A stretch of DNA of 64,000 nt from the NCBI GenBank assembly GCA_024697945.1, contig JAILRU010000099.1, positions 1 to 64,000 on the forward strand. Reading direction: 5' to 3'. Shown here piece after piece: positions 20,112-34,511 of the stretch (position 1 is the stretch's first letter; every line of letters begins with the position of its first letter). This DNA is from Bacteroidaceae bacterium (lineage in GTDB: Bacteria > Bacteroidota > Bacteroidia > Bacteroidales > Bacteroidaceae). Both the position numbers and the translations under genes were made by a program. The notes under the pieces were generated by a model. The model saw only the letters and a list, made by a program, of their open reading frames with translations, did no database searches and was not told the DNA's origin.

Positions 20112-20157
20112 AAAATTTGGAGCGCGACTTTTTTCAAAAAGTCAACGCCAAATTTTT
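20112..20157. repeat. Palindromic intergenic repeat (aaaatttggagcgcgactttttt...)
   Basis: aaaatttggagcgcgacttttttcaaaaagtcaacgccaaattttt, imperfect inverted repeat; same left arm as the element at 31781. Confidence 0.8.
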
Positions 20158-30204: not shown

Positions 30205-30429
30205 GTTGAAAATTAAAAAAAGGTTTTTATACGTTATTCCATGTGCAAAAGTAATCATATATTTTTATATAGTTGTCTAACTGAAAAGCCTTTTCGCGTG
30301 AATAATATATGCAATCCTTTGTCCAACGAGAATAAAAATGAGGTGACGGCAGAAAATAATTCTGTTTTTTCGCTCCACTTTTATCTTTATTTCGTAACTT
30401 TGCAACCGAATTTGGGCAATCGGGGGGCA

Positions 30430-30590
30430 GTAGCCGCCTGATGAAAGGGAATCCGGTGAGAGTCCGGGACTGTACCTGCAGCTGTAATCCTCGTTGAAGA
30501 GGTCTGCTTGTATAACGCCACTGACATCGAAAATAGGAGTCGGGAAGGTAAAGCAGACTGAGGAAAGTCAGAAGACCTGCCAAACTACAG
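30430..30590 (+). ncRNA. Cobalamin riboswitch
   Basis: Conserved core tgaaagggaatccggtgagagtccgggactgtacctgcagctgtaa, then gccactgacatcgaaaataggagtcgggaaggtaaagcagactgaggaaagtcagaagacctgcc. TAACTTTG -7 box at 30395-30402. Ends approximate. Confidence 0.88.
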
Positions 30591-30787
30591 AAGTACGGCC
30601 GTACAGGATGATGCGGTGCGGAAAACATGGTTGACGAACGAACAGATGCTATCGTGGGTTGGCATTATTGTGCATGGCCCAGATGTCATGGGCATAGACC
30701 ATCCTGAGGGCTGGCGAAGGCAAGGCCTATATATGCTCCATGTATTCTAAAGAGTTGTACGTGTATTATTATATATCATTGTTTGGT

Positions 30788-30826
30788 GGAGATGTTGTCG
30801 TGAGACAGCATCTCCATTTGCGTTTT
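30788..30826 (+). terminator. Intrinsic terminator about 200 nt after the riboswitch
   Basis: ggagatgttgtc-gtga-gacagcatctcc followed by atttgcgtttt. Confidence 0.8.
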
Positions 30827-30969
30827 AGCACTGGCGCAAGAAACGGGTCCTACAGATTTTCGTGTACGTAGCAACTTAGAATAGCCCTACGGCATCAAAC
30901 AGATAGCGCAACAGGCATAACAAAAGAAAGCTACACCCAAAGTTTGAAAAAGCCGTGGCAAAAGTTCAT

Positions 30970-30984
30970 TCCACGACGTGGAAC
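30970..30984. repeat. Short perfect palindrome ttccacgacgtggaa
   Basis: TTCCACG-A-CGTGGAA; related half-site ccacgacgag follows. Confidence 0.5.
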
Positions 30985-31263
30985 GATAAAACCACGACGA
31001 GAAACAAACTTTATTTTTTACCCACACAAAATCTTGTGGAACCCAAAAACGAACTCGAACTGTTGCGGTTGAAAAGACGCTTCAGCGCCATTTACATTGC
31101 TTTACGGATAATCAATCCCTGAAAAAAACCTGCCCTCCCCGAAAACGCAGGAAAAAACGGCAGAGGCTTCACCTACGCAGGGAAAAGGCCTACCTTTGCA
31201 CCAGCCAAAAGGGGAGAAGGCGCCCTCCGCCTGGCGGCATCAACCACAAAAAGACTTACAACT

Positions 31264-31860
31264 ATGAGAAAGTATCAAAAGCATGCCCAAACGGGCAGCA
31301 ACAACAATGCAACGACTCCCTTCGCACAGGCCTGCCAGCAAATGCACCTTGCTGCCAACGCTTGCCTCAACTGGCTCATCATGGCCCAGCGCGGCAGTCT
31401 GCAGATGGTGCACGCCGAGATGGGATGTGCCCGCAGCACCCGACTGGCCCGACTGCATCCCGGCAGCCACGAGCTATCGCCACAGAGCGCCCTGCAACTG
31501 GTGGTGATGCCGGCGCAGTTCGACGACGTGCGAGAGCATGGCTACGACCACCAGCGGTGGCAGACACTCATCTACAGCTGGCTGGGACGTGAACTCACCG
31601 AGCAGCTGCGGCAGCACTTGGCATCGAAGATGAACATGAAGAACTGCAAGTTCTTCCTCGTCAGAAGTGGTGAGTGCGAAAAGGTGGCCGACTATTCCGA
31701 CCGAAGCATCATTTTACTTGAAGATGACGCCCCCGAACATGGCGAGAGCGGCTCCACACAGAAAAAGGAGCACGCCTCGCCAAAATTTGGAGCGCGACTT
31801 TTTCCAAAAAGTCAACGCCTTTTTCCAAAAAGTCGCGCTCCAAATTTTGAAGGGGAGTAA
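31264..31860 (+). CDS. Hypothetical protein; C-terminus encoded by palindromic repeat
   Basis: Intact ORF after promoter-like tacctttg; coding supported mainly by ORF length and its position before an amidase gene. Confidence 0.55.
   Translation: MRKYQKHAQTGSNNNATTPFAQACQQMHLAANACLNWLIMAQRGSLQMVHAEMGCARSTRLARLHPGSHELSPQSALQLVVMPAQFDDVREHGYDHQRWQTLIYSWLGRELTEQLRQHLASKMNMKNCKFFLVRSGECEKVADYSDRSIILLEDDAPEHGESGSTQKKEHASPKFGARLFPKSQRLFPKSRAPNFEGE
31781..31849. repeat. Long palindromic repeat overlapping the ORF 3' end
   Basis: caaaatttggagcgcgacttttt ... aaaaagtcgcgctccaaattttg, 23-bp perfect arms. Confidence 0.93.
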
Positions 31861-32843: not shown

Positions 32844-32882
32844 GGGCGCAGGGGGAAATGTCCGTGGATGCCCCCATGCTGC

Positions 32883-33965
32883 CTAACCAAATATCGTAGC
32901 GCAACGGTACATGAAGAATGGCAAGTCAGTGACCCCATGTACCTGCGCTCTCAATGCCTTTATCTTCGAGTTGAAAGACTCTGCGGATGCATTGGTAGCC
33001 CTGTTGTTGAAGTAGTTCAGCACATACTCTTCCTTGCTCATGATAGTGTCGCGCACCGAGATGATTTCCCTGATTCTCGTCCTTCCCACGTTCTTTCCCC
33101 ACTTGCGCAAAGCCTTCTTGGCTTTCTTCCTGTCCGTTATTTTGCTGAAGATGTTGCGCAGGGCGCACAGCAGGCCGTATGCCGCCTTCATCTTCGGCTC
33201 AATCTCAAACAGCAGGTTCATTTCCCCTCTCTGGAAGTCAGTCCAGTCGCCGGGGCTTTTCATCAGCGGGTATCTCACATGCGTGAGCAGGTCGGCCTTC
33301 GTCTCTCCGTTGCTCAGCTTGGGAGGCTCGAACTTCTCGTTCTTGCGCTTGGGCGGTCGGCCTATGCGCTTGCCGTTCTTGCTCTTCCTGGGAGGATGCT
33401 TCTCCCTGTACCTCTTCCTGTTCTTGGCATTGCGTTCCTGTTTCTTCTTGAACTGGCGTTCCTCCCGCTTGACCTCCGTGGTGTTGGCGCGCTTGAGCTT
33501 CATGCGCATTGCGTCAAGCCCCTTCGTGCCGTAGAGCTGCATGACGTGGAACAGGTCGATGACTATCTCCGCCTGCGGGAACTCCTTCCTCACGATGCCC
33601 ATCATGCTGTCCGAGAAGTCCATCGTCACCTCCTTGACCTTCTGGCGGCTCCACAGGGGTATCTTGTCCAAATGCCCCGCCACTTCGGCGACCGTCGTGC
33701 CCTTGACGGCGGCGATGAGCGTGCCCTTCTTGCAATGGCCGTCCTTGTTGGAAAGGAAAGTGAACAGGTCGTGGTGCAGCATCGTCTCGTCGATGCCCAG
33801 GCGCTCGCCCATGTTCTGCCCCAGCAGCACCCACTCACCTGCATGCTCCTTCTGGTCCCAGTCACCATACCCGCTCAGGTGCTCCTTGTAGGCGCGGCTG
33901 AGGTACTTACCGTCAGTCCGGAAGAAGCGCCCCACGCATTGGGCCGTCACCGGGTAGGTGTCCAA
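32883..33965 (-). CDS. ISAon1-family transposase (DDE, ISL3-like)
   Basis: TAQCVGRFFRTDGKYLSRAYKEHLSGYGDWDQKEHAGEWVLLGQNMGERLGIDETMLHH ... NASAESFNSKIKALRAQ; probable TTG or frameshift-derived start. Confidence 0.92.
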   Translation of the reverse strand: MDTYPVTAQCVGRFFRTDGKYLSRAYKEHLSGYGDWDQKEHAGEWVLLGQNMGERLGIDETMLHHDLFTFLSNKDGHCKKGTLIAAVKGTTVAEVAGHLDKIPLWSRQKVKEVTMDFSDSMMGIVRKEFPQAEIVIDLFHVMQLYGTKGLDAMRMKLKRANTTEVKREERQFKKKQERNAKNRKRYREKHPPRKSKNGKRIGRPPKRKNEKFEPPKLSNGETKADLLTHVRYPLMKSPGDWTDFQRGEMNLLFEIEPKMKAAYGLLCALRNIFSKITDRKKAKKALRKWGKNVGRTRIREIISVRDTIMSKEEYVLNYFNNRATNASAESFNSKIKALRAQVHGVTDLPFFMYRCATIFG

Positions 33966-34353
33966 CCATTTTTTTTAAGAAATCCGCAAACTCCACTGAG
34001 TAGCAGGTCCCTTCTGCCACTAAAGGCAGGCTTTCCAGAACAACATTGCCTCCGTCTCCGTCGAGCCAGCGGCGGCGGCGTACATGCAGCAGCACCTTGT
34101 GCTCTCGTTGGGGAAAGTCGTTGAACAGGCGGGCTTCAGTAAAGCCGTTGGGATGCAGGTCGTGCCATTTCACATCACGAAGGTCACGCTCGTCAAGGTA
34201 GATATGGAGGATACGGATGACCGTGCCCGTCTCGTCCATCTCGTTTGTCACTTCTTCGTCGATCTTGGTAATCTCGAAGTAATCAAGAATGCCGTTGGGA
34301 AGCATGAAGCGCACCAACGTCTCGTAGTCGAATGATGAATGTTTCTTTGCCAT
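33913..34353 (-). CDS. ISAon1-family transposase N-terminal region protein
   Basis: YETLVRFMLPNGILDYFEITKIDEE ... VLLHVRRRRWLDGDGGNVVLESLPLVAEGTCYSVEFADFLKKM; overlaps the transposase ORF at an A8 run. Confidence 0.9.
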   Translation of the reverse strand: MAKKHSSFDYETLVRFMLPNGILDYFEITKIDEEVTNEMDETGTVIRILHIYLDERDLRDVKWHDLHPNGFTEARLFNDFPQREHKVLLHVRRRRWLDGDGGNVVLESLPLVAEGTCYSVEFADFLKKMVGHLPGDGPMRGALLPD

Positions 34354-34511
34354 GCTGCAAAGGTAACACTTTTTTCGGACATGAGTTCCGTTGCGCTAAG
34401 ATATTTTGGTTAGGTGGCATGGGGGGCTTATCCACGGACTTCCCCCCCTGCGCCCTGAAAACTTATTTTTTATATCGACTGTATAAGCTAATACTGATCC
34501 CCAAAGTTCTA

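Follow-up and report, generated by a model that had tools for sequence, protein, structure and literature searches.

A cobalamin riboswitch followed by a conserved seed motif and terminator in Prevotella: a candidate trans-acting small RNA with predicted targets in the mutA and oadG leaders

The DNA analyzed here, hereafter called the window, is a 64,000-nt stretch of a Bacteroidaceae draft genome (assembly GCA_024697945.1, contig JAILRU010000099.1; genome G000) that is placed in genus g1. An Rfam scan of the window returned a cobalamin riboswitch (RF00174) and a tRNA, and nothing else. The riboswitch match covers positions 30397–30598 on the + strand, is full length and scored 80.1 bits (E = 4e-18; gathering score, 31.5); by this covariance model the segment is a cobalamin riboswitch, and corrinoid binding is predicted for it. 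A Bacteroidota -7 promoter element, TAACTTTG, is located at 30395–30402 (+), with an identical sequence in the closest relative carrying the same locus, RUG13587 (L077), and the form TACCTTTG in a second species (L055). Directly after the aptamer lies a hairpin, GCCGTA-CAGGATGA-TGCGGT (30598–30617, +), which is likely to serve as the expression-platform (kissing-loop) hairpin; in coding relatives, GCGTC-CAGGAATA-GGCGC is found immediately 5′ of the receptor start codon. About 140 nt containing no conserved gene then lead to the motif TACGTGTATTATTATATA (30758–30775, +), termed the seed here, which is antisense to the mutA leader. The seed is followed by an intrinsic terminator, GGTGGAGATGTTGTC-GTGA-GACAGCATCTCCATT plus a T-rich tail (30785–30828, +), the stem of which (30785–30818) has 15 pairs and a GTGA loop. 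Folding of this tail gave -27.6 kcal/mol versus -15.4 kcal/mol for shuffled sequences (z = -4.2), and no intrinsic terminator was seen between the aptamer and the seed. In the region 30560–30860, no Rfam family was found beyond the aptamer, the small RNAs (sRNAs) FopS (RF04319) and Bacteroides-1 (RF01694) being unmatched up to an E-value of 5; neither had a match at the gathering score anywhere in the window.

This arrangement agrees with the initial annotation, which had described an orphan riboswitch with its own promoter, ending in a terminator with no gene and separated from a distant and unrelated + strand ORF; no + strand ORF reaches 80 codons until 31264–31860, and the one there had no Pfam match. 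The conserved single-stranded motif just 5′ of the terminator had been overlooked. The initial annotation had also looked to close relatives for an intact btuB-like gene at this position, and RUG13587 is likewise gene-less, with a sequence almost identical from riboswitch to terminator apart from the differences given here. One of these concerns a 26-codon ORF (30627–30707, +), previously offered as a tiny peptide under riboswitch control. It begins about where coding relatives have the receptor start codon, yet a 2-nt indel after codon 3 shifts its frame in RUG13587 and no equivalent ORF is shared by the other orphan loci; the ORF is probably not a gene, and regulation of a peptide is a very improbable account of the locus. 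It was also noticed that about 220 nt right after the terminator (30827–31046) are missing from the otherwise near-identical RUG13587 locus.

Comparison of the whole window bears on whose DNA this is. Positions 1–32376 were colinear with a contig of RUG13587 (G369; genus g6, Prevotella), with a 27.7-kb block (97.4%), a less conserved part at about 28–31 kb and a last 1.3-kb block (97.4%), and the match ended inside the tRNA-Gln gene of that genome. The segment at 21–25 kb was nearest to g6 genomes, and its transporter gene had a separate copy elsewhere in G000 that was only 70% identical, while the part at 37.5–40 kb was g1-like. The contig therefore looks chimeric, or recently recombined or transferred. 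In G031, the other g1 case, the locus is on a 4-kb contig that was 86–97% identical to Prevotellaceae RUG431. Since the first half of the window is Prevotella-like and the G031 contig is Prevotellaceae-like, the RNA described below most likely belongs to Prevotella and not to the nominal genus of the bin. Shortly after the end of the RUG13587 match, an IS-like segment with inverted ends was noted by inspection (approximately 32846–34455). In addition, a short sequence present at 20112–20149 and 31782–31819 matched several places in the RUG13587 contig (38 nt, 97%), and an inverted copy was found too.

A covariance model of the tail only (motif and hairpin), designated R1, was built from two sequences, those of the window and of L055 in G031, and searched against 400 genomes of the family. 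Nine motif-bearing loci including that of the window were obtained, and all nine had RF00174 upstream on the same strand; L055, also a source of R1, was a tenth motif locus with an upstream riboswitch. The remaining R1 matches lacked the motif, some of the weaker ones lying on or beside the unrelated FopS and Bacteroides-1 sRNAs. An exact scan for the motif across named genomes yielded 119 or more stretches; nearly all were in Prevotella, and 5 were in unrelated phyla, the number expected by chance. With up to 3 mismatches allowed, the 21-nt motif or its antisense target site was present in 138 of 300 genomes of the genus Prevotella. Among 124 distinct Prevotella motif loci, 88 had an aptamer directly upstream, 26 were placed behind a long same-strand ORF, past its stop codon, and 10 fell in neither class, one of which (L137) is an antisense oadG site. 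No same-strand ORF of 100 codons was present within 450 nt in 40 of the 88 direct loci; the remaining 48 had such ORFs, not all of them genuine. A riboswitch was confirmed by Rfam at all 18 direct loci sampled. As the 18-mer was used for the search, its perfect conservation is partly a product of selection; AAGTT, which follows it and was not selected, carried 0.4–1.6 bits per position versus about 0.1 in the upstream flank. Sequences following the motif were nearly all distinct (86 of the 88 direct loci), with a strong hairpin after the motif in every case. The motif was not predicted to be especially unpaired (0.42), and accessibility gave no clear signal.

An aptamer followed by a terminated non-coding part that is conserved beyond the aptamer is what would be expected of a riboswitch-controlled, trans-acting sRNA. 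The search for conservation downstream of B12 riboswitches that the initial annotation had proposed found the tail motif behind RF00174 at many loci, and the recurrence of riboswitch-motif-terminator units in many Prevotella species favors the small-RNA alternative that it had raised. Its other suggestion, loss of the regulated gene, would make the locus an orphan riboswitch left by a B12 receptor gene, with the tail and terminator as remnants. The g1 aptamers most similar to that of the window do precede TonB-dependent receptors; against this, the gene-less unit occurs in many species, with diverged aptamers, an invariant seed beside varied terminators, and unrelated neighborhoods, and such a remnant is hardly credible. 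When a gene-loss scar was sought in 139 genomes of the nominal genus, only the G031 tail convincingly matched the DNA 3′ of the aptamer. A repeated or mobile terminator was also considered and rejected, the 26-nt hairpin being exact in only two g1 genomes and behind a B12 riboswitch in both, as was a promoter reading of TATATAAGTTTG, which is not conserved between loci. A link with the neighboring amylase gene, another earlier suggestion, found no backing: neighbors vary between loci, and the targets predicted below are mutA and oadG.

At the 26 loci following a long ORF, the genes tested were mostly CbiK, TonB-dependent receptors and a transporter, others having no Pfam match, and Rfam confirmed a riboswitch at 13 of 18 sampled loci, about 3.4 kb upstream in most. 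At L126, L172, L138, L136, L214 and others, seed and terminator close the 3′ regions of CbiK, TonB receptor and transporter genes. Seed and terminator at such B12-related 3′ ends suggest 3′UTR-derived copies of the same sRNA. A further group, the leader-type loci (L081, L121, L150, L170, L178, L219 and L223), has riboswitch, seed and terminator followed by a TonB receptor gene; here the terminator contains GACTTAT, with which ATAAGTC is able to pair, an organization resembling an attenuator.

Targets were sought by pattern searches for the antisense motif, with 473 leaders of other Prevotella genes as controls. Inspection of 20 inexact matches showed that 13 lay in antisense on the leader of a single gene, near its start codon; this gene is mutA, encoding the small subunit of the B12-dependent methylmalonyl-CoA mutase (TIGR00642). 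In a sample of 62 mutA leaders from Prevotella genomes carrying the motif, 53 had at least 10 contiguous bases complementary to the seed, compared with 2 of the 473 control leaders. The longest match to mutA leaders averaged 12.2 for the seed and 6.1 for scrambled seeds; 10 contiguous bases were reached by 22 of 1750 shuffled leaders, and reversed or complemented seeds had no preference for mutA leaders. In RUG13587, the mutA leader can form 15 contiguous pairs with the seed, ending a few bases 5′ of the ATG. The predicted pairing is mostly A-U and moderate, about -14 to -21 kcal/mol. The site was absent from mutA leaders of g1 and Bacteroides, both of which lack the sRNA. The mutA gene of G000 itself was tried as a target and had no site in its leader, which led us to recognize the contig half as Prevotella; this absence is explained only if that assignment is correct. 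Correspondence between sRNA and site was imperfect in both directions, G668 being one of a few genomes with the sRNA and a weak mutA site, and G576, G662 and G512 having a good site with no sRNA detected.

One of the two control exceptions was oadG (OAD_gamma and LTD domains), the first of the methylmalonyl-CoA decarboxylase genes, with mmdC and mmdB following it. In all 13 sRNA-bearing genomes in which oadG was found, its leader had 10 or more complementary bases, and the site was absent from the oadG leaders of G332 and G552. Antisense sites 5′ of oadG were located at L137:342–357, L268:2061–2076 and L276:2053–2068, with up to 22 contiguous bases in L137, and both the mutA and oadG sites were present in Xylanibacter ruminicola SIG140. 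Complementarity to translation start regions thus exceeded that in controls for both genes (53/62 for mutA, 13/13 for oadG), as would be expected of a base-pairing sRNA. The gene mutA was present in 36 of 36 sRNA-bearing Prevotella genomes tested (one as a partial match) versus 9 of 28 near-complete genomes without the sRNA (Fisher p = 8e-10, or 3e-8 with six target-only genomes added to the second group), a comparison somewhat biased by choosing the second group for having no motif match on either strand and made between phylogenetically non-independent genomes. This linkage of the motif to mutA is a further point against the remnant of a lost receptor gene.

The same data can be read as a shared binding site, in which the motif would be recognized by a DNA- or RNA-binding protein (a transcription factor, an RbpB-like protein or a nuclease) at the sRNA loci and at mutA and oadG alike. 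AU-rich single-stranded motifs are typical of protein-binding sites. Yet the orientation is fixed and opposite, sense just 5′ of the sRNA terminator and antisense just 5′ of the target start codon, and the 21 nt are used in registers that vary among species, such as AACTTATATAATAAT and TATATAATAATACAC. Moreover, in two related genomes, G143 and G551, an A-to-G change in the seed and a U-to-C change in the leader restore a base pair, in what is to be counted as a single event; their own pairings were -20.1 and -15.3 kcal/mol versus -11.5 and -9.6 kcal/mol with the consensus seed. The seed variant there (L091) is ACGTGTATTGTTATATAAGTT, and it is matched by AACTTATATAACAA in the mutA leaders of the same genomes. 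Although Bacteroides does have a global RNA-binding protein, RbpB, with sRNA families among its ligands (PMC11697453), we regard a protein site as improbable.

From the recurrence of the unit, its riboswitch linkage, the conservation of the seed and its complementarity to two leaders of one pathway, all read directly in the sequences, we infer expression, pairing in vivo and the sign of regulation of what is probably a riboswitch-gated, base-pairing, B12-sparing sRNA. The locus would produce a non-coding RNA of about 430 nt consisting of the B12 riboswitch, a variable spacer, a conserved 17–21 nt seed and an intrinsic terminator. Under B12 shortage, the riboswitch would permit the downstream part to be made or to be active, as in B12-uptake genes; the seed (consensus 5′-ACGUGUAUUAUUAUAUAAGUU-3′) would then pair in trans with the AU-rich leader directly 5′ of the mutA start codon and, in many species, also 5′ of oadG-mmdC-mmdB, and this pairing would block translation and lower the mRNA level. 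With B12 present, the RNA would not be made or not be active, mutAB and the mmd genes would be expressed and propionate formation would be possible. It is likewise probable, if with somewhat less assurance, that this represents a widespread Prevotella family comprising a riboswitch-gated, trans-acting, B12-sparing sRNA and further copies that B12-uptake transcripts release at their 3′ ends. One way for the aptamer to act as the gate would be Rho-dependent termination, the mechanism seen at E. coli btuB (PMC11162775).

The physiology of X. ruminicola KHP1 is in line with these targets. In a 2024 study of transcriptome and proteome, B12 raised mutA and mutB in both transcript and protein (log2 1.3–1.7) and raised mmdB, mmdC and oadG slightly, methylmalonyl-CoA mutase being the sole enzyme of the pathway consistently raised; the PduO adenosyltransferase rose with B12 as well. 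Four B12 riboswitches were reported, two immediately 5′ of B12 genes and none near the mutase, and the authors stated that the mechanism was not known and that riboswitches were apparently not directly involved (PMC11575231). The targets predicted by sequence alone, mutA and oadG, coincide with the mutAB and mmdBC-oadG loci raised in KHP1, the sites having been read in SIG140 and the expression in KHP1.

Most B12 riboswitches turn their transcript off with B12. Because of this, and because seeds are found in the 3′UTRs of B12-uptake genes, the simplest reading is that at low B12 the seed is present and mutA and oadG are repressed. The same sRNA could instead act on the same targets with the opposite sign, a terminated seed RNA accumulating at high B12 and activating or stabilizing the mutA and oadG mRNAs, for example by opening or protecting the leader. 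The rise of mutAB with B12 fits this as well, and so does the leader-type subclass, in which, by inspection, TATATAAGTC...GACTTAT forms a hairpin competing with the terminator before the B12 receptor gene; in such an attenuator-like design B12 would favor the short RNA, and termination before the receptor gene could yield a short seed RNA at high B12. However, the 3′UTR copies end B12-uptake genes, the B12-uptake operon of KHP1 is among its most strongly B12-responsive transcripts, and the site is at most about 40 nt from the start codon, a region in which pairing usually prevents initiation. Activation at high B12 is therefore unlikely, and repression at low B12 is preferred.

Several known systems resemble the proposed sRNA in part. 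In Enterococcus and Listeria, EutX and Rli55 are also non-coding RNAs with a 5′ B12 riboswitch that act in trans, such that a B12-dependent catabolism is expressed only with B12 (PMC5821096); they sequester the protein EutV via paired hairpins, whereas the RNA proposed here belongs to Bacteroidota and has an invariant seed with complementarity to mRNA leaders. As far as the description in PMC11575231 goes, a Listeria propanediol antisense RNA is likewise controlled by a B12 riboswitch, with catabolism highest with B12, but it is a single antisense RNA, unlike the trans-encoded copies found here at many loci, far from at least two targets. In E. coli btuB, a B12 riboswitch and the sRNA OmrA also belong to one circuit (PMC11162775), but there the sRNA acts on the riboswitch mRNA, whereas here the riboswitch would make the sRNA. 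FopS/GibS and Bacteroides-1 (RF04319, RF01694) are Bacteroidota sRNAs that also have an intrinsic terminator, with an exposed seed in FopS, but they have no riboswitch and no seed in common with the Prevotella sRNA. In RyhB-type cofactor-sparing regulation, shortage of a cofactor switches on an sRNA that represses enzymes needing that cofactor. The proposed logic is the same, with a riboswitch in place of the repressor protein as the gate and B12 as the cofactor. The candidate would thus combine an EutX/Rli55-like outcome with RyhB-like logic and, as far as tested, is a member of neither group, the window scan having returned only RF00174 and the tRNA.

Propionate formation by rumen Prevotella/Xylanibacter is B12-dependent, and propionate is important both to the glucose supply of the host and to greenhouse-gas output (PMC11575231). 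If the proposal is correct, cells would stop making a B12-dependent enzyme at B12 shortage, trans action of a riboswitch by way of an sRNA would explain how B12 raises the mutase, and a B12-sparing counterpart to the iron-sparing sRNAs would be at hand; so far as the literature searched shows, it is the first riboswitch-gated sRNA proposed in Bacteroidota.

Two other features of the motif loci were noticed. At L086 (P. communis E15-14), two B12 riboswitches on opposite strands lie back to back with 67 nt between them. At L109, L110, L118, L142 and L147, a recurrent gene starting like MKHESIVVVYDSCQAIAEEIADKLGAE, and flavodoxin-like by eye, is located closely 3′ of the seed and terminator.
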